From Melioribacteraceae bacterium (GTDB lineage: Bacteria; Bacteroidota; Ignavibacteria; Ignavibacteriales; Melioribacteraceae), in assembly GCA_030584085.1 (NCBI GenBank), contig CP129490.1, forward strand, positions 2,141,511-2,205,510: DNA of 64,000 nucleotides, in the 5' to 3' direction. The notes beneath the pieces are model-generated. The model saw nothing but the letters and a program-made list of their open reading frames with translations. It was not told where the DNA came from and ran no database searches. Shown here in pieces: positions 38,861-46,420 of this stretch. Positions within the stretch are counted from its first letter, which is position 1. Each line of letters begins with the position of its first letter. The position numbers were made by a program, and so were the translations under genes.

Positions 38861-39155
38861 AGCTTGCTCCCATGAACAATTTATATTGAATGAATTAGAA
38901 ATCTCACTCACAGGAACGGTAATGTGCAAACGCTAAATTGGTTGAGAGAAACGTAATCTTTTTTCTGAATAAAATCAAAACAGAGGTTTAAGTATGATAA
39001 TATATAGAAGAAAATTTTTACTAATTTAATTCATGATCAAGATCAATCGAGGTTAACAATATAGCGGCAGAAAGCGAGAGGTTCTCAGAACATTTCTATT
39101 CAGGAAACCTCCGAGAAATATAAAAGAAATCAACGGTTTACAAATAAAACGATTG

Positions 39156-39243
39156 CGGAGAGAGTGGGATTCGAACCCACGGTACCCTTTTGAGGCACAC
39201 TCACTTTCCAGGCGAGCCAGTTCAACCACTCCTGCACCTCTCC
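39156..39243 (-). tRNA. tRNA-Ser (anticodon GGA)
   Basis: 88-base class II tRNA with a long variable arm. The acceptor stem GGAGAGG pairs with the 3' end, the anticodon loop CTGGAAA holds GGA (39209-39207), and the T-loop is TTCGAAT between GTGGG and CCCAC. The discriminator is G, and CCA is not encoded (CAA follows). Confidence 0.95.
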
Positions 39244-39334: not shown

Positions 39335-39422
39335 GGAAGGATGCCAGAGTGGTTGAATGGGGCGGTCTCGAAAACCGTTGATCTCTTTTAGGGATCCGAG
39401 AGTTCGAATCTCTCTCCTTCCG
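39335..39422 (+). tRNA. tRNA-Ser (anticodon CGA)
   Basis: 88-base class II tRNA. The acceptor stem GGAAGGA pairs with TCCTTCC. Anticodon loop CTCGAAA with CGA at 39369-39371. The T-loop is TTCGAAT between GAGAG and CTCTC. Discriminator G; CCA is not encoded. Its last 14 bases and the next two are repeated at 39868-39883. Confidence 0.95.
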
Positions 39423-39424
39423 CT
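39409..39424 (+). repeat. 16-bp direct repeat, copy 1 (tRNA 3' end)
   Basis: TCTCTCTCCTTCCGCT covers the 3' T-stem and acceptor strand of tRNA-Ser(CGA) plus two bases. The identical copy at 39868-39883 bounds the GIY-YIG insert. Confidence 0.9.
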
Positions 39425-39867
39425 CTACTTCGCCCTTGGGCTTCGTAGAGCTTCGCTCTCCGGAATTTTAATGAAGGAGACGCTTTGCTTTGCGGAATTT
39501 GTATGAAAATCGTGTTTTGTTTCTAATCAAATTCAAAATTTGAATTCATCTGTTGATATCTATTGAATTAAGCTAATCCTCTCAAATTTAATTAGAGGTG
39601 ACAAAATGTATTATGTTTACTTTCTCAAAAGTAGAATGTCTTCATTTCGTTATGTTGGATATACATCAAATATAGATCAACGTTTCAAAGAGCACAATTC
39701 TGGCATGAACAAATCAACAAAACCATATCTCCCTTTTGAATTGGATGCATTCGTTGCTGTTCAAACAAAATAAAAAGCTCAACAATTAGAACAGTACTTC
39801 AAAACTGGTTCAGGTATTGCTTTTGCCAGAAAGCGAATTTTAACCTACGAAGCCTTGGCGAAGTAGG
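39425..39867 (+). mobile_element. 443-bp GIY-YIG mini-element with hairpin inverted-repeat ends
   Basis: The insert lies exactly between two copies of a 16-bp tRNA 3'-end sequence. It opens with CTACTTCGCC and ends with GGCGAAGTAG plus one G, so the termini are inverted repeats. Each terminus also folds by itself: 4 bp, a 3x3 internal loop, 3-4 bp and a TT tip (CTACTTCGCCC TT GGGCTTCGTAG at left; CTACGAAGCC TT GGCGAAGTAG at right). Inside is one broken GIY-YIG nuclease gene whose last codons lie in the right hairpin. No transposase or integrase is present. The element boundaries are read directly; mobility is inferred. Confidence 0.75.
39606..39866 (+). pseudogene. GIY-YIG endonuclease gene with in-frame stop
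   Basis: The ATG at 39606 follows GAGGTGAC. The frame reads MYYVYFLKSRMSSFRYVGYT, then RFKEHNSGMNKSTKPYLPFELDAF, the GIY-YIG nuclease core of short UvrC-like proteins. At codon 56 (39771-39773) TAA stands where relatives usually have Glu or Asp, and the same frame continues as KAQQLEQYFKTGSGIAFARKR to a TAG at 39864-39866. So one nonsense change splits an 86-codon gene. The last residues, YEALAK, are encoded by the right-end hairpin. Confidence 0.85.
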
Positions 39868-39883
39868 TCTCTCTCCTTCCGCT
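39868..39883 (+). repeat. 16-bp direct repeat, copy 2
   Basis: Identical to 39409-39424 (end of tRNA-Ser(CGA)). It has no tRNA body of its own, so it is the far-side duplication left by insertion of the GIY-YIG element. Confidence 0.9.
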
Positions 39884-40540
39884 GGTTAGTTATTCCGCGT
39901 TCTGTTTTTTTAGTGATCCCAGAACTCTAGCGAATAAATTACCAGGTAAAAAACCTCTAATCATCATGAACATTATATATTAATCTGAGCGAATATATTT
40001 TCAGTATTAGTATTGCAATTTATGAACTTCACTGAGAGTTGATTGGAGGTTAAACGTATTCAAATACTTTTCAAATAGGTTTCAGAGTATAAGTTGAGCG
40101 GATATTGACACCAGGTAGAGACCGGATGGAAGCGTTATTAAGTGAGGCAATAAATTGTTATTAGAGTAATATTCTTTTTAATTTTTTACTGTACCATTTA
40201 ATATTTTTTCTTATTTTGTGTTTCAGTTATAACAATTAAGGTTGTTATGGATTATTTCCCCTTCTCATTCCCTATTATCGTTTTATTCGCAGTGCTTTAC
40301 ACATTCTTATCCTTCACTAATAAATTTTTAAACTACAATTTTTGCATAAATAACAGAATCTATTCCGTCCACTCCGGAGTTGCAAGTACAAACATAGTTC
40401 TGATTTATGAAAATTTTAAAAAGAAATCAACGGATGTTGGAGTTGCTGATTTTGCATCGCAAACATCTTGGTTAGAATAAATAGTTGTTGTTTTGTGTTA
40501 GTTATAAAGCTTCTATTATATTCATTTTTATGGGAGATAT
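39884..40540. other. Gene-poor stretch beside the tRNA/GIY-YIG locus
   Basis: It holds no convincing gene. An ORF at 40247-40480 (77 codons, first 35 residues hydrophobic) has no ribosome site and no recognised family; I do not call it. A short perfect inverted repeat, ATAACAA / TTGTTAT (40229-40248), lies over its ATG, and GTTATAA recurs at 40226 and 40501. These resemble fragments of integron cassette ends or simply decayed mobile DNA. Confidence 0.4.
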
Positions 40541-41518
40541 ATGGCTAGACGAAAAACAAAAAATATTACTGGTATAACTCGAATAGATGGCTTACCAGTT
40601 CATGATGCCTACGTTGCATTTATTTGTATTAATTGTAAAGAATTAAATACAATTCATATTGGGGCACAACTTATTTCACCAAAGGATGCCTTTGAAAATG
40701 CACTTTGGAAATGTGAAAAGTGTGATTTTATTCATTCTAAAAATACTGATATCCCATTTACAAATTGGAAAGGTCCCTTTAGAAAATCGAAGTCTCTGCA
40801 AGCTGAAAGATTTTGGCGTGCCTTTTTTCTAACTAGCACCGAAAATCCAGAAGCTTTTTGGAAAAGGTGTGGCGCATGTAATAGAATATTACCTTTTCAT
40901 TCATTTAGCAAACATGTTAACTGGGGTCCTCTAGAAAGGCAAATGGAATGTAGAGCATGTAAAGGTGCAATTAATGCAGAGTTGAATCCTAAAAGGACCA
41001 AACAACAATTGCATGAATCCTCCATTAGGAGAAGAATAGCTGACATTCTAGTTGCCGAAGAAAATGAGAAAATTGATATAAAAAAATTATTTGAAAGATT
41101 TGATAACAAATGCTTTAAGACAAAAAAAACATTGGATATAAGTAAGCGTAACACCTGGGCAATAGATCATATCCTTCCTTCAAAATATCTGTATCCTCTT
41201 AAGGTTTCTAATGCTGCATTATTGTCAAAAGAAGCCAATGAGAACAAAAGAGATCAATTGCCAAGCAAATTCTATACTAACAACGAACTTATTGAATTAG
41301 CTAAAATAACTGGTGCGGATTTAACGCTGTTAACTAGTGAAGTACCAATTATCAATACAAATATTGACGTTAATAAATGTGTAGAAAGATATTTAAAAGT
41401 GCGGGAAAAATCTAATCTTAAAAAAAGAATTGGAGAATTGAAAAAATTACTAGTCTCCTATGATTTAATTCAACTTCTTTCAAAGGAAAATAAGAAATTG
41501 TTAGGCATTAAAGAGTAG
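40541..41518 (+). CDS. HNH endonuclease with zinc-ribbon N-terminus (probable restriction enzyme)
   Basis: A 325-residue protein. Two Cys4 sites: Cys29/Cys32/Cys58/Cys61 and Cys110/Cys113/Cys137/Cys140. The HNH nuclease region (about 185-245) reads FDNKCFKTKKTLDI, WAIDHILPS (Asp209-His210), NAALLSKEANENKRD (Asn224, Asn235), the beta-beta-alpha metal fold. It ends one base from the end of a convergent double-domain DNA methyltransferase gene, so it is the likely cleavage partner of a type II restriction system. The ATG follows GGGAGATAT. The two genes are convergent, so each needs its own promoter. Confidence 0.78.
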   Translation: MARRKTKNITGITRIDGLPVHDAYVAFICINCKELNTIHIGAQLISPKDAFENALWKCEKCDFIHSKNTDIPFTNWKGPFRKSKSLQAERFWRAFFLTSTENPEAFWKRCGACNRILPFHSFSKHVNWGPLERQMECRACKGAINAELNPKRTKQQLHESSIRRRIADILVAEENEKIDIKKLFERFDNKCFKTKKTLDISKRNTWAIDHILPSKYLYPLKVSNAALLSKEANENKRDQLPSKFYTNNELIELAKITGADLTLLTSEVPIINTNIDVNKCVERYLKVREKSNLKKRIGELKKLLVSYDLIQLLSKENKKLLGIKE

Positions 41519-41519
41519 C

Positions 41520-44249
41520 CTAATTCTTTTTAAGAAAAAGATACTGATGAACTTTAACAGAACCTTGATCCTTAATACCGAAGTTTTCATTATCGGTAAC
41601 TTTTTCATTAAAATACCCGATAATATTAAAATTGGGCTGTGCATATGGAATAAGCATTTCAGCCATATTTGCTTTTTTTGAAAAGCCTAGATGTAAAATT
41701 ATATGTCCTTCCTTTTTAAGAAGGCTAGACATCAAATTAAAAAATTTGGTATATATACCTATATCTCGCACTTGTTTAGTCTCTAAGAATAATTCTTTTT
41801 TTGATTTAAAGTCATCTTGTTCCCATCCTGCAAACCACATGCGAATCCAATTAGCCATATAGAACTTTGTAGAATCATAAAAAGGTGGAGATGTTATTAC
41901 GATATCGACACTTTCGTTTTTTACTTTTTTATCTAATTCAGCATAGTCTCCTTGAAAGACACTATATTTAACATTTTTCCAATTCGCTTTGTCAACTACT
42001 GCCCTAGTTACTTTTTCATTTAATTTTTCAATAAGATTTTTATTAATAAATTCTCCTTTAGGCGCGAAAGGTGTTATTGGATGTGAGGTTCTCGATAAAG
42101 CATATGGTCTGTTGCCATGTAAAATATGCAGTAAACTCGAAAATACAAATGAGTGATTTTCTTCAAATTCAACTTCATTTAAAAAGTATTTTCTTGCTGA
42201 AATAATCTGCTTAAATGTTTCCTGTTGGTAATAATCACTTAATTTTTTATTAAATCCAAAGTCGTTTCTTATCAATTCTTCATCTTGAACTTCATGTTCA
42301 TTAATATAAATTTTTAGATTATTTATTATTTCATAACATTTTGATGCATCTACTTTACCAACTTTCGCCAATGTATTTGAATATGCTAATTTACTTAAGT
42401 CATTCGCTATGATTCTCCTATTATTCAAGATTGCTTCAAGAGGTATTGTTCCAACACCTGCAAGCGGGTCAAGTACTACATCATTTTCTTTAGTAAAATA
42501 GTTCACTAAATAGTAAGCTATTGAGGGCTTCAATTTCCCTTGATAAGAACACAATGAATGGAGCCTACTACCCCAATTTCTTTTAGAATATGGAAATCTT
42601 CTATAAGGTAGTTCGTCCCTAAAATTTTTCCAGTTTTTTATAATTATATCTTCGTCTTTGACCGCAATATTGAACATACCGCTACTATATTTAGTCGGAC
42701 TTTTTTCATCCTTTGTGAAATGAATTAACCATTGTCCAAGCTGTTTCCCATTCTTTGAGAATCTATTTCTAATTTTAGTTTTTTTAACCAAACTAAAACC
42801 TTCTCTTACTCCCATATTCTCGAAGAGTATATCAGTAGGTATATGTACATTATTAAAGATTGAATCTCCTATATCAAAATAAAAATTACCACCGTTTTCA
42901 AGGATTTTATAAAGGTTTTTAAACACTTTTTGCATATCATAAAAATAATGTTCTACAAGTCTTGGTATTCTTTTATCGTAATTGTTTTCTTCAAGATTTT
43001 CAATAATTTCATTCAATTGGTCAATTTCATTTTTTTCAAGTTTCTTTTTGTTACTTACGTTATTTATTCCAGCAGTAATAGCATCTTGTCTTAATTTTTT
43101 CATTTCAGCTTCTTGGTTTACCAATTCTAAGAACAACAATTCTAATTTCGTATTACGAAAATAATTGGTCCCATTTACATATGGAGGCGATGTTACGATT
43201 GTATCAAAATGTTCGGCATATTTACCAATATCTCCTTTCGCATCGTTTGATACGAGAAATGCATTATTACACTTCTTAATTTCTAAGTTAATCAAGTCAT
43301 TTATAGCAGAATCCACTTTTTCCTTAAAAAGCCCAAAGACATCTTCATCAATTTCATTAAATTCCTTCCCTTTTTTATATCTTAAATCCGCCCGTCTTAT
43401 CATATTGGATTCTTTAACAATTATTGAACTTAACAAAAGCATTAGAAAACGCTTACTAATAGAAGACAAAGAGGATTCATTGATTTTTCGTTTGAGTTGG
43501 ACTAGTTTCTTAAGAATAGATTCCTCAAAAAAACCATTTGTTAAAAGCATATTTTCAGATTCGTTAAACTCAACTCTACCATTATATCCACGTCCCATCA
43601 AATCGCAGAGCGAATATATTAACTTACTTTCCTTTTTTACAATGAAGTCTCGAGATTGAATCGATTCTATTTTAGTGCTTATTATAAATCTCATTAGTGG
43701 ATTTATTTCAGAATAACCTGATTTAATTTTATTTAAAACACTCACTAAAATTGTTGTGCCAGTACCCGCAAAAGGATCATAAACTGATTTCGGATGTAGA
43801 ATATTATGATCGAAAATCTTCTCAATAAAATCATACGAAAATCCTTCAACATATGGATACCAATTAAATATTCCTTTCTCCTTATTATTTTTAAATGTTC
43901 CAGACGAGGGATTAAATTCTAAAATATCTGTACCTGCTAAAAACAAGTCAAGCTGATTCCTATTATTTATATTGTATTTAGTAAGTTTTTCACGAATCAA
44001 AAACGTGCATGCATTACTCAAGGATCTTCTTTCACTATTAGCAATATCCTCAAGGTCTTCATAGGATTTATTATCAAGCAAAGCTCTCATTTGAGCTGAG
44101 CTTAAATCTTTTATTATATCAATAAATTCTTTTTCGTTTTCATTTAATGCTAATCTTATTAATTTTGTCTCATTATCATCGTTATAGATTTTAGGGTAGG
44201 ATATTGATTTGTAATATTGGCTCATGCATATTCTGTTATTTAATACCAT
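41520..44249 (-). CDS. DNA methyltransferase with two fused catalytic domains
   Basis: A 909-residue protein with two amino-methyltransferase domains. Domain 1: motif I DPFAGTGTTIL (158-168) and catalytic SPPY (354-357). Domain 2: motif I DPLAGVGTIPL (594-604) and SPPF (787-790). SPPY/F marks N4-cytosine or N6-adenine methylation. Two domains in one chain suit an asymmetric site, each domain marking one strand, as in FokI-type systems. The partner nuclease converges on it with one base between them. The start is uncertain: ATG at 44249, or 44225 (MSQYYKSISYPK); neither has a clear ribosome site. Confidence 0.85.
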   Translation of the reverse strand: MVLNNRICMSQYYKSISYPKIYNDDNETKLIRLALNENEKEFIDIIKDLSSAQMRALLDNKSYEDLEDIANSERRSLSNACTFLIREKLTKYNINNRNQLDLFLAGTDILEFNPSSGTFKNNKEKGIFNWYPYVEGFSYDFIEKIFDHNILHPKSVYDPFAGTGTTILVSVLNKIKSGYSEINPLMRFIISTKIESIQSRDFIVKKESKLIYSLCDLMGRGYNGRVEFNESENMLLTNGFFEESILKKLVQLKRKINESSLSSISKRFLMLLLSSIIVKESNMIRRADLRYKKGKEFNEIDEDVFGLFKEKVDSAINDLINLEIKKCNNAFLVSNDAKGDIGKYAEHFDTIVTSPPYVNGTNYFRNTKLELLFLELVNQEAEMKKLRQDAITAGINNVSNKKKLEKNEIDQLNEIIENLEENNYDKRIPRLVEHYFYDMQKVFKNLYKILENGGNFYFDIGDSIFNNVHIPTDILFENMGVREGFSLVKKTKIRNRFSKNGKQLGQWLIHFTKDEKSPTKYSSGMFNIAVKDEDIIIKNWKNFRDELPYRRFPYSKRNWGSRLHSLCSYQGKLKPSIAYYLVNYFTKENDVVLDPLAGVGTIPLEAILNNRRIIANDLSKLAYSNTLAKVGKVDASKCYEIINNLKIYINEHEVQDEELIRNDFGFNKKLSDYYQQETFKQIISARKYFLNEVEFEENHSFVFSSLLHILHGNRPYALSRTSHPITPFAPKGEFINKNLIEKLNEKVTRAVVDKANWKNVKYSVFQGDYAELDKKVKNESVDIVITSPPFYDSTKFYMANWIRMWFAGWEQDDFKSKKELFLETKQVRDIGIYTKFFNLMSSLLKKEGHIILHLGFSKKANMAEMLIPYAQPNFNIIGYFNEKVTDNENFGIKDQGSVKVHQYLFLKKN

Positions 44250-44287
44250 ACAATGGTAATGAACTTCTTTTTTAATGTCAAGCGCTT

Positions 44288-44478
44288 TATAACAAGTTGC
44301 TCAAGGTGACAGTGTTTTCGCTTTCGGCATTTATGTAATTGTAAAATTTGTATTTCCGTTTTGGTTTTGTTGTTCAGCTGCATTTATAAATGTGAGTTAT
44401 GCAGTAAATAAAAAGTTGTTTAATAAATTTAGTAGTGTTGTTATGGGCTGCGCCTTATCAACCACGCCGTTACATCTC
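44288..44478 (+). repeat. Integron attC-like sequence (tentative)
   Basis: TATAACAAGTTGCTCAAGG begins the stretch, as in many attC/VCR sites. TTTCGGC and TTTTGTTGTTCAG, GAGTTATGC at 44394, and GTTGTTATGGGCTGCGCC then CCGTTAC near 44475 follow in an order reminiscent of Vibrio cholerae repeats. The 302-base gap between the methyltransferase and the outer-membrane gene holds no ORF. No integrase is in the window. The resemblance is from memory and the two ends do not fold well by eye. Confidence 0.3.
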
Positions 44479-44551
44479 AGAAAAAGGAGCCAGATGAAAT
44501 AAAACTTTACATGTTTTACTTAATTAACATTTCCAAACATCCGGAGTTAAT

Positions 44552-45118
44552 ATGAGTTATAAATATGTGCTTTATGTTTTATTTCTTATCTCTTTTTCAA
44601 TTTCTGCTCAAGTCAAAATATTCAAGGGATGTTATTCAATCGGTGGGTCAATCTCCTACTCTGAAAGGTCTTATCAACAGCCAAAAGCAACAGAGACAGT
44701 TTTTGAATTTCGTCCAACAATTGGGTATTTCTTTATTAATAATTTATACACATCAATAAATATAAATTACACCAATGATAAAGATCTGCAATATCCAAAA
44801 GAGAGTTGGAGTTTTGGTCCGGGTATAAGGTATTATTTTCCGATCGATAGAATTGCTCCGTTTGCCGGAATAAACTATATGCTGCGGCATGAGGATCCAA
44901 AATTTGAGTACAGCGGATCGCACAACACCGAAGATATAAACTTTCTCGGCGGAGTAAATTACTTTTTATCCAATAGTGTCGCACTGGAATTAAGTATTAT
45001 TTATTCAATCATAGATACGGAATACGAATGCGGTCCAGCCGATAATTGTGATCCGGCTTATTTAAAGGAAAGTAACGCATTTAGACTTGGCTTAGGTGTA
45101 AATTATTTTTTGGATTAA
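44552..45118 (+). CDS. Small outer-membrane beta-barrel protein
   Basis: A 188-residue exported protein. The signal peptide ends in ISFSISAQ (about residue 20). The rest alternates in amphipathic strands with aromatic ends (VFEFRPTIGYFFINNLY, WSFGPGIRYYFPIDRIAPFAGINYML, INFLGGVNYFLSNSVALELSIIYSI) and finishes with GLGVNYFLD, the pattern of 8-strand OMP_b-brl/OmpW-like porins. The ATG follows CCGGAGTTAAT. The function is likely structural or for small solutes, and is not known. Confidence 0.82.
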   Translation: MSYKYVLYVLFLISFSISAQVKIFKGCYSIGGSISYSERSYQQPKATETVFEFRPTIGYFFINNLYTSININYTNDKDLQYPKESWSFGPGIRYYFPIDRIAPFAGINYMLRHEDPKFEYSGSHNTEDINFLGGVNYFLSNSVALELSIIYSIIDTEYECGPADNCDPAYLKESNAFRLGLGVNYFLD

Positions 45119-45240
45119 ATTGCCACTTGCCGTGCGATAATTACAAAACGGAACCGACACTTAACAAAGTGGTGGTGAAAAGGGTTGATTGTTTTTCTAA
45201 AAGTAATTACATTGTGGATACGTTATTTCAAAAGGAAAAC

Positions 45241-45498
45241 ATGAAAGCAAAAATTGTAAAAATAGGAAATTCGCGTGGAGTTAGAATTCCTAAATCCTTT
45301 ATTGATGAGAGTGGTCTTAAAAATGAGGTAGAACTTGAAATTGAAGATGGCAAAATAGTTATCAGACCAATATCAAAAAATAGAGAATCGTGGGATTCAG
45401 CTTTTCAAAAAATGGCAAAAGATGAAGACGATGTTTTGTTGGATTCGGAAGCATTGTTAAAACAAACAAAATGGGATGAAGAAGAATGGGAATGGTAA
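45241..45498 (+). CDS. mazE: MazE/AbrB-family antitoxin
   Basis: An 85-residue protein. The N-terminal swapped-hairpin DNA-binding domain reads MKAKIVKIGNSRGVRIPKS, typical of MazE. The C-terminal half is acidic (DEDDVLLDSEALLKQ, EEEWEW) and should wrap around the toxin. I chose ATG 45241, which follows AAAAGGAAAAC; the frame runs 38 codons further upstream but without family resemblance. It ends directly before mazF (TAA then ATG). It neutralises the toxin and likely represses the operon. Confidence 0.88.
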   Translation: MKAKIVKIGNSRGVRIPKSFIDESGLKNEVELEIEDGKIVIRPISKNRESWDSAFQKMAKDEDDVLLDSEALLKQTKWDEEEWEW

Positions 45499-45819
45499 AT
45501 GGTCTCACGCTTTGAGATTTATTATATCAATTTAGACCCCACAATCGGGTATGAAATTAAAAAGACTCGTCCTTGTGTAGTTATTTCCCCGGATGAGATG
45601 AATCATAATATCCGGACTATAATAATTGCCCCACTAACCAAAATATTACGGAACTATCCAACTCGTATTCCTTGCAAAGTAGAAGGAAAGCAAGGTCAAA
45701 TCGTATTAGATCAAATCAGAACAATCGACAAAACCAGACTTATTAAAAAGATAGGTACATTAACAAACACAACACAGAAAAAAGTATTAAATGTGCTGAA
45801 GGAAATGTTTTCTGATTAA
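45499..45819 (+). CDS. mazF: MazF/PemK-family endoribonuclease toxin
   Basis: A 106-residue mRNA interferase. FEIYYINLDPTIGYEIKKTRPCVVISPDEMN is the family N-terminus, with the conserved Arg in KTRP. IIIAPLT, GKQGQIVLDQIRTIDKTRLIKKIG and the C-terminal helix complete the fold. It immediately follows the mazE stop codon. MazF toxins cut mRNA at short sequences and halt growth when the antitoxin is lost. It probably stabilises this accessory region. Confidence 0.92.
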   Translation: MVSRFEIYYINLDPTIGYEIKKTRPCVVISPDEMNHNIRTIIIAPLTKILRNYPTRIPCKVEGKQGQIVLDQIRTIDKTRLIKKIGTLTNTTQKKVLNVLKEMFSD

Positions 45820-46309: not shown

Positions 46310-46420
46310 TATGAGTCCTCCTTTAATGTTATATTAATAATAATGAATTGTAATAAAAAATAGTACAAAATTTATTTCCCCTCCTACGTTAAAAAGCAAC
46401 TTCGGAGGGCATGCATCTTC

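Follow-up and report, generated by a model that had tools for sequence, protein, structure and literature searches.

A putative nuclease-only mini mobile element at tRNA genes: a decayed GIY-YIG copy behind tRNA-Ser(CGA) of a Melioribacteraceae bacterium and its relatives

Introduction

What is a 443-bp piece of DNA with a single nuclease gene, bounded by two copies of a tRNA 3' end, doing directly behind a complete tRNA-Ser gene of a Melioribacteraceae bacterium? The insert lies in a stretch of 64,000 nucleotides (64 kb; the whole of it is called the window here) of a 3.74-Mb genome that consists of one contig. A first-pass annotation took it for a small mobile element moved by a GIY-YIG nuclease, of which a fragment would be left, and placed it somewhere between a homing element and a REP/IS200-like unit. 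One GIY-YIG nuclease with a known relationship to tRNA genes is SegB of phages T4 and T6, a homing nuclease that cuts within them; its motif RAWTSGAAC is found at 23 of 83 sites, and a 718-bp tRNA-Tyr/segB unit is amplified in tandem only if the enzyme is catalytically active (PMC13096335). By deduction, the reverse complement of this motif as given there, GTTCSAWTY, would be the T-loop sequence.

Results

The insert and its surroundings in the window are made up of the following parts:

39155-39243, minus strand: tRNA-Ser(GGA), divergent from tRNA-Ser(CGA)
39335-39423, plus strand: tRNA-Ser(CGA), the target gene, still complete (ARAGORN; Rfam RF00005, 53.7 bits)
39409-39424, plus strand: 16-bp direct repeat, copy 1, from the T-loop edge of the tRNA to its 3' end +1
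39425-39867, plus strand: whole insert, 443 bp, bounded by the repeats
39424-39449, minus strand: left end hairpin with a 5-bp outer stem, a 3x3 internal loop GAA/GAA and an inner stem (motif scan and fold)
39606-39866, plus strand: GIY-YIG nuclease gene, 86 codons and a stop, decayed by an in-frame TAA at 39771-39773
39844-39867, plus strand: right end hairpin, CCTAC-GAA-inner-GAA-GTAGG, which also encodes the last codons (motif scan and fold)
39868-39883, plus strand: 16-bp direct repeat, copy 2, a copy of the tRNA 3' end

The direct repeat TCTCTCTCCTTCCGCT is present in two perfect copies at a spacing of 459, of which the first is the own 3' end of tRNA-Ser(CGA) plus one base, and with up to two mismatches allowed these remain the only copies in the window (shuffle mean 0.02). 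The length of the insert and its perfect flanking repeat were described correctly from the start. Both hairpins read N5-GAA-inner stem-GAA-N5' and are inverted relative to each other, while the left one shares base 39424 with the first repeat copy. Folded as single-stranded DNA they reach -3.3 and -2.0 kcal/mol (z -1.5 and -0.4), and 19 and 57 of 200 shuffles, respectively, fold at least as well. As such, the earlier claim that the same hairpin forms at both inverted ends stands for shape and orientation, as found by motif scan, but not for energy: the folds are weak on their own, and the support for the hairpins is comparative, not energetic. These weak folds, each no better than those of a good part of the shuffles, are what could be said for a coincidence, with hairpins and repeat arisen by chance next to the pseudogene of an unrelated nuclease. 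With an expectation of 0.02 for the repeat, and with the same anatomy in a close relative (L022/L069) and in tens of others described below, such a coincidence is hardly conceivable.

The nuclease gene is indeed the only gene of the insert, as no further open reading frame of at least 50 aa is present. With its stop written as X, it matches Pfam GIY-YIG at E=3e-15, the domain taking residues 1-67 of 86 and leaving no separate DNA-binding region. Its terminal codons (YEALAK) fall inside the right hairpin, as had been noticed. To call it a fragment was too strong, because the family consists of single-domain proteins of about 80-90 aa, for which 86 codons are nearly full length; rather, it is a decayed copy, in which the scanned reading frame (39606-39773) is ended by one in-frame TAA between the conserved R and E.

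Two known kinds of element were tried on this anatomy and rejected. Elements of the IS200/IS605 and REP/RAYT types are likewise small and have hairpin ends, but they carry a Y1/HUH transposase and are not known to duplicate their target. The suggested likeness to them was dropped, since the insert has no Y1/HUH transposase, its sole reading frame of at least 50 aa being the GIY-YIG gene, and since no duplication of the target is known from IS200-type insertion. Homing of a group I intron was set aside because the two tRNAs are the only Rfam matches above gathering thresholds in the window, without any ribozyme, and tRNA-Ser(CGA) is uninterrupted. Compared with DDE insertion sequences and MITEs, the insert has the inverted ends and a 16-bp repeat, but across relatives shape instead of letters is conserved at the ends, and it contains no transposase reading frame.

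A second, intact copy elsewhere in the same genome, for which the first-pass annotation had advised looking, was not found: the exact end letters occur at the insert only, the left end otherwise gives short, chance-like matches, and the nuclease query at E <= 1e-6 returns the insert alone among the matches listed. The genome does have other GIY-YIG matches (L001, L002, L004-L006), two long proteins among them, and no tRNA was found in the 3-kb stretches of L001, L002 and L006. A same-scoring GIY-YIG gene lies near both contig ends (L001 and L002; G000 C1:646-3864 and 3732062-3735280), perhaps as a repeat or because the contig ends are redundant, and the gene of L001 is flanked by palindromic repeats of the GGAATGACA type. 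Within the window, a lone sequence with the end-hairpin motif, CCTCCGAAGTTGCTTTTTAACGTAGGAGG, sits in an intergenic gap at 46380-46408 (minus strand), and is either chance or a gene-less copy.

Relatives of the insert were found with a profile of five window-clade nucleases, which was run against 84,980 genomes and gave 280, of which the best 80 were kept. These 80 come from Melioribacteraceae, Ignavibacterium, Balneolaceae (Fodinibius, Rhodohalobacter), Cytophagales and Chitinophagaceae, and from Neomarinimicrobiota, Omnitrophota, Chloroflexi, Patescibacteria, Armatimonadetes, Elusimicrobia, Alphaproteobacteria (Mesorhizobium) and others; altogether, records of the family carry 18 different phylum labels. 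Relatives are also present in cultured hosts: Fodinibius salsisoli (L194), F. halophilus (L203), Rhodohalobacter sulfatireducens (L220) and Mesorhizobium sp. (L242). In 69 of these best 80 of 280 a tRNA or tmRNA gene lies within 300 bp of the nuclease, always on the same strand, with the nuclease at its 3' side in 64 and at its 5' side in 5. For the rest the nearest tRNA or tmRNA is further off (4) or absent (7), and five of those seven end at a contig end within 260 bp upstream, which leaves full flanks for L257 and L258 only. Bacterial genomes of this kind hold about 45 tRNA genes per 3.7 Mb, as an order of magnitude, and the chance expectation for a tRNA within 300 bp is, by rough estimate, under 1%. 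The same query found no relatives in phages, plasmids and viral contigs, and an origin from any of these was rejected on that account.

The clearest relative is found in a Melioribacteraceae MAG (G322; L022/L069, evidently the same as L181), whose nuclease is intact and 76% identical to that of the window. Its element follows a different tRNA, Ser(GCT), with a left hairpin CTACTTCGCC... and a right hairpin CCTACGAAGCC...GGCGAAGTAGG, after which come 16 bp of the own, different 3' end of Ser(GCT). Further elements, in G403, G074 and G116, are located at tRNA-Ser GGA, GCT and CGA, respectively. The search for other genomes with ends of the same kind, proposed along with the first claims, thus did yield relatives, in which the stem letters vary and the shape is kept. 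As the letters vary, searches are better made with the nuclease; hairpin letters gave matches in just 5 of 395 genomes of the phylum.

At E <= 1e-6, at least 71 of 97 genomes of the host order and family have relatives of the nuclease. A survey of this group took in loci L017-L150, that is, most of the matches listed plus four from the hairpin-letter search; from these 134, 11 overlapping ones were dropped, and 4 of the 123 kept were without a nuclease hit, leaving 119. Among these listed matches, 102 of 119 loci are at a tRNA, a tmRNA or remnants thereof: a same-strand tRNA within 300 bp has the nuclease at its 3' side in 59 and at its 5' side in 28, 9 loci lie behind tmRNA, and 6 have tRNA or tmRNA remnants at a contig end only. 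L034 went into the remnant group on the strength of its nuclease, which is near-identical to the one at the tmRNA locus L071. No locus has its nearest tRNA on the opposite strand, although one extra reading frame in L084 does. The other 17 loci have no tRNA or tmRNA, and 12 of them form one separate nuclease clade without a single tRNA-linked member, used here as an internal control. In one locus of this clade (L090 1960-2330) the nuclease gene has short inverted ends, CACCCCGTCAA/TTGACGGGGTA, and splits another gene, which, judged by eye from its motif, presumably encodes a four-helix-bundle protein.

Residues Y5, Y16, G18, R26, H30 and E62, which we take to be equivalent to the catalytic residues of I-TevI, are invariant in five of five window-clade proteins. 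Twelve nuclease pairs were chosen for substitution analysis: in the seven where it could be computed, dN/dS is 0.05-0.22, in four others synonymous sites are saturated with fewer non-synonymous changes, and every difference between L201 and L213 is non-synonymous. Of the best 80 of 280 relatives, 7 have an in-frame stop in the part that was matched. Judged by these substitution patterns the nuclease is under purifying selection, and low dN/dS alongside stops in 7 of 80 indicates a protein that is generally kept working while some copies, including that of the window, decay. Such selection, together with the same-strand position and the adjacency to tRNA genes, would also be expected of a nuclease useful to the host in RNA processing, repair or defence and duplicated along with the tRNA, without being mobile. 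The patchy presence of the gene, its stops in the window copy and in 7 of 80 relatives, the many different tRNAs involved, the inverted ends and a gene-less derivative (see below) make that quite improbable. In L054, L083 and L052 a possible start codon of the nuclease lies 1-7 nt behind the tRNA 3' end, so that its message may begin where the tRNA is cut off, and be leaderless.

The window-clade profile was also compared with solved structures, matching only PDB 1zg2 (E=4e-6) and 1ywl (E=0.007), small GIY-YIG proteins of the UPF0213 kind that their depositors named hypothetical proteins. To our knowledge, these have no link to mobile ends or tRNA genes.

Whether the repeat belongs to the element or to its target can be read from loci at different tRNAs. 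For 69 loci with a tRNA within 350 bp upstream and 100 nt of sequence behind, the longest match to the tRNA 3' end was sought behind the nuclease, and is at least 11 bp in 35 of 69, versus 0 of 66 for control 25-mers of the same loci; a repeat of at least 11 bp is absent in 34 of 69. If instead the hairpin is located first and the 15 bases behind it are compared with the own tRNA, 23 of 37 loci (the window included) agree at 13 positions or more, and these 23 present 21 different 15-mers. The own tRNA is the best or tied match in 24 of 37 loci and strictly the best in 14, while behind 14 of 37 hairpins fewer than 13 of the 15 bases agree with the tRNA. One Peribacteraceae genome has elements at both tRNA-Gln(TTG) and tRNA-Gln(CTG), carrying CCTCCGCCCCAGCCA and CCTCCACCCCAGCCA, respectively; each is that of its own tRNA, and the repeats differ at one base, as do the two tRNA ends. 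As the repeat equals the local tRNA at each locus, it tracks the target and not the element. In L184/L023, the right end is followed by a copy of non-tRNA sequence that stands behind the left hairpin. The repeats could be short recombination sites rather than target duplications.

Among the end hairpins, those at right ends read N5-GAA-inner stem-GTA (or GCA, GAA, ATA)-N5'. In the best 80 of 280 relatives, a strict scan recovers this motif in the right zone (160 nt) of 38 and, in inverted form, in the left zone (340 nt) of 39, with both ends in 24 loci; hairpins in the wrong orientation are found in 9 of 80 and 9 of 80, and the background in the same records is 3 in 608,472 nt. Fifteen different outer 5-mers occur at right ends, and by this comparison the ends are conserved in their shape and their GAA/GTA internal loop, whereas the letters of the stem change. 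A further search, in which the arms were picked as complementary, gave a pairing of 0.95 versus 0.58 (29 of 36 loci), a figure biased by that choice. As the ends are oppositely oriented, it would be DNA and not one transcript that is recognised. Behind the nuclease of L201 (3235-3620) and of L213 (340-760), several hairpins of the end type stand in a row in both orientations, as if hairpins alone had multiplied.

Beyond the single locus first noted, the family turns out to be far larger and to include 5' ends of tRNA genes, tmRNA and tandem arrays. Arrays of related nucleases occur in the host order at many other tRNAs and at tmRNA. Of 20 stretches analysed with TRF, chosen mostly for clustered hits, 13 have tandem repeats with units of 295-450 bp in 2.0-5.3 copies and 93-99% matches; ten of the 13 have a called tRNA, and each of these ten arrays starts or ends inside it. 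In L138 and L140, tandem units contain an ARAGORN tRNA (Ser GGA, Met) plus successive nuclease copies, so that tRNA gene number may rise with the array.

Spare tRNA copies that lie between units are often broken. Small inserts, 52 different ones in 34 loci, split tRNA copies in the T-loop (22), the D-loop (19), the anticodon loop (6), stems (4) and the variable region (1), and 18 of the 22 T-loop inserts have TTC before and GA or AA after them. Perfect end-to-end double hairpins make up 21 of the 52, versus 0.24 expected from shuffles; the other 31 are single or imperfect hairpins, or none in two D-loop cases (L099, L113). The tRNA parts of split copies are often identical to the intact neighbour. 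A congener, G031, has such a copy at the very site of the window: its tRNA-Ser(CGA) is followed by a partial tRNA copy with TCCCGTAAGGATCACTTTGTGA in the T-loop, after which comes a left hairpin without a nuclease. A gene-less derivative of the element was read by eye, in tandem, in L211.

For the nuclease tree, 172 hits were reduced to 114 near-full-length rows, one per locus and target type; the proteins are short and give few columns, leaving 51 of 110 inner branches open. Placing 18 target labels ('none' included) on it takes 35 changes, compared with 79 on average for shuffled labels (0 of 200 shuffles as low), so that target type follows the nuclease tree. The window clade has six rows, one of them very long, which are all at the 3' side of tRNA-Ser (support 93). 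Its sister holds eight tmRNA rows, two tRNA-Ala rows and two unplaced ones, a combination that fits, as the tRNA part of tmRNA resembles tRNA-Ala; a ninth tmRNA row, L132, lies away from this clade. Groups targeting Lys, Asn, Cys, Leu and Glu tRNAs also cluster, while the tRNA-Ser 3' label as a whole takes 11 changes. On an 81-row tree, phylum labels take 29 changes (least 17; shuffled mean 49), and the six Ignavibacteriota rows fall apart entirely, a scatter that suggests horizontal transfer of the element, short of proof.

That target type follows the nuclease is also what a free-standing, SegB-like homing gene would produce if it spread only by cleaving unoccupied alleles of one tRNA locus, into which it is then copied with flanking homology, the hairpins and repeats being by-products. 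Such a reading has a precedent in SegB, a GIY-YIG nuclease that cleaves tRNA genes and causes tandem amplification of tRNA-segB units (PMC13096335). What it leaves unaccounted for is the combination of inverted, shape-conserved ends with a repeat of the local tRNA across isoacceptors and many phyla, which are not features of homing genes as we know them. Moreover, the protein has just one domain, is about 86 aa long and has no additional DNA-binding region, and that of the window clade is without a match in phages or viral contigs. We therefore regard plain homing as unlikely, though it is the main alternative to the mobile element that we favor.

The tRNA-Ser(CGA) site was also compared among 20 genomes. 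Within the 110 nt shown, 13 have by eye neither hairpin nor tRNA copy, two (G031, G349) have a remnant of a split tRNA arm, the site is filled in the window's own genome, and four were not shown. No exact strain-level empty site is among them, the flanks being too diverged to bound the insertion. Between this site and the conserved flank lies a variable stretch, in the window (40180-45161) as in L068. In the window it encodes an HNH-type protein (weak Cas9/PtuB matches) and a type II methyltransferase of 909 aa, and G031 has other sequence there, with a 74-bp leader (40180-40253) common to both at 93%. The stretch looks like a hot spot for defence genes, and just past it, at 45178-45816, lies a MazE-like/PemK-like toxin-antitoxin pair.

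Variable genes that follow the site, and a repeat of the tRNA 3' end as is typical of tRNA islands, would both be in place if the insert were the remnant of an integrated island, whose integrase made the 16-bp att repeats and whose passenger was the nuclease. Islands of tyrosine recombinases likewise keep the tRNA complete. However, no tyrosine integrase (PF00589, E <= 0.001) is present in the 64-kb window, all 12 matches of the genome being elsewhere. Unlike islands, the unit here measures about 0.3-0.6 kb, and the same small unit recurs in records of 18 phylum labels, at 5' ends of tRNA genes and in tandem arrays as well. An island origin is therefore disfavoured, and very improbable.

Discussion

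In this study, we propose that the insert behind tRNA-Ser(CGA) is probably a decayed copy of an autonomous, nuclease-only mini mobile element that targets tRNA genes. The comparison of relatives, which is a comparison of sequences throughout, shows a shared anatomy, a target preference, a repeat matched to the tRNA, ends that keep their shape, arrays, a gene-less derivative and selection on the nuclease. On these grounds mobility and targeting are well supported, while the part of the nuclease in the insertion is inferred. As such, the small mobile element of the first-pass annotation holds up in its defined ends, its tRNA-derived repeat and its lone GIY-YIG gene; that the nuclease moves it goes one step further than these.

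In an intact element, a lone gene for a single-domain GIY-YIG protein stands between a left hairpin and a right hairpin of the same shape in inverted orientation. The element adjoins a tRNA or tmRNA gene in the orientation of that gene, together with a copy of the tRNA terminus (about 15-25 bp in many loci, longer in some), so that one tRNA copy remains complete and a partial copy lies beyond the element. We suppose that the nuclease cuts the tRNA gene in the T-arm, or near the D-arm in the 5' type; we consider a cut in the T-arm likely because the SegB motif, read on the other strand, would equal the T-loop and the T-loop inserts sit in the middle of it (GTTC|GA). The element would then be copied into the break by way of its hairpin ends, the tRNA-derived repeats, or both, leaving a repeat of the tRNA. 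Repeated cutting and repair could give rise to the tandem arrays, and the small hairpins in the loops of spare tRNA copies would abolish the cut site.

A bolder version, which we offer tentatively as a possibility, is that the lone GIY-YIG nuclease is the transposase of a new class of element. It would recognise folded hairpin ends by their shape, through a GAA/GTA internal loop with free stem letters, and cut tRNA and tmRNA genes at their loops; the target duplication would keep the tRNA working, and gene-less double hairpins would be seeded into tRNA loops.

How does this compare with known systems? The element resembles homing nucleases in target choice and array growth, and transposons in its ends and repeat. 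With SegB and other free-standing GIY-YIG homing endonucleases it shares a nuclease in or beside tRNA genes and tandem tRNA-nuclease units (PMC13096335). It differs in being chromosomal in many bacterial phyla, in having a single domain and inverted hairpin ends, and often in a copy of the tRNA end. I-TevI and the Seg proteins have an additional DNA-binding region. The loop inserts recall the double-hairpin elements of mitochondria, which are also pairs of hairpins inserted in or near loops of RNA genes; we know of no nuclease partner for those, whereas here the hairpins lie in tRNA copies next to nuclease units. In the available part of a survey of the GIY-YIG superfamily from 2006, no such element is described (PMC1564403), and a description of GIY-YIG elements at bacterial tRNA ends was not found in the open-access literature. 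Lacking the defining features of homing introns, of IS200/REP elements and of integrase islands, it would be an element of a new kind, unless it is a form of free-standing homing gene.

If this is right, a nuclease of fewer than 90 residues, two hairpins and the repair of the host would suffice for an element to spread across bacterial phyla, with its home next to genes that are among the most conserved in the cell. Many small GIY-YIG genes that adjoin tRNA genes would gain a meaning, and tRNA copies broken by loop hairpins would be explained. Furthermore, it would provide a minimal system for the transition from homing nuclease to transposase, and a clean test of structure-guided recognition of DNA.
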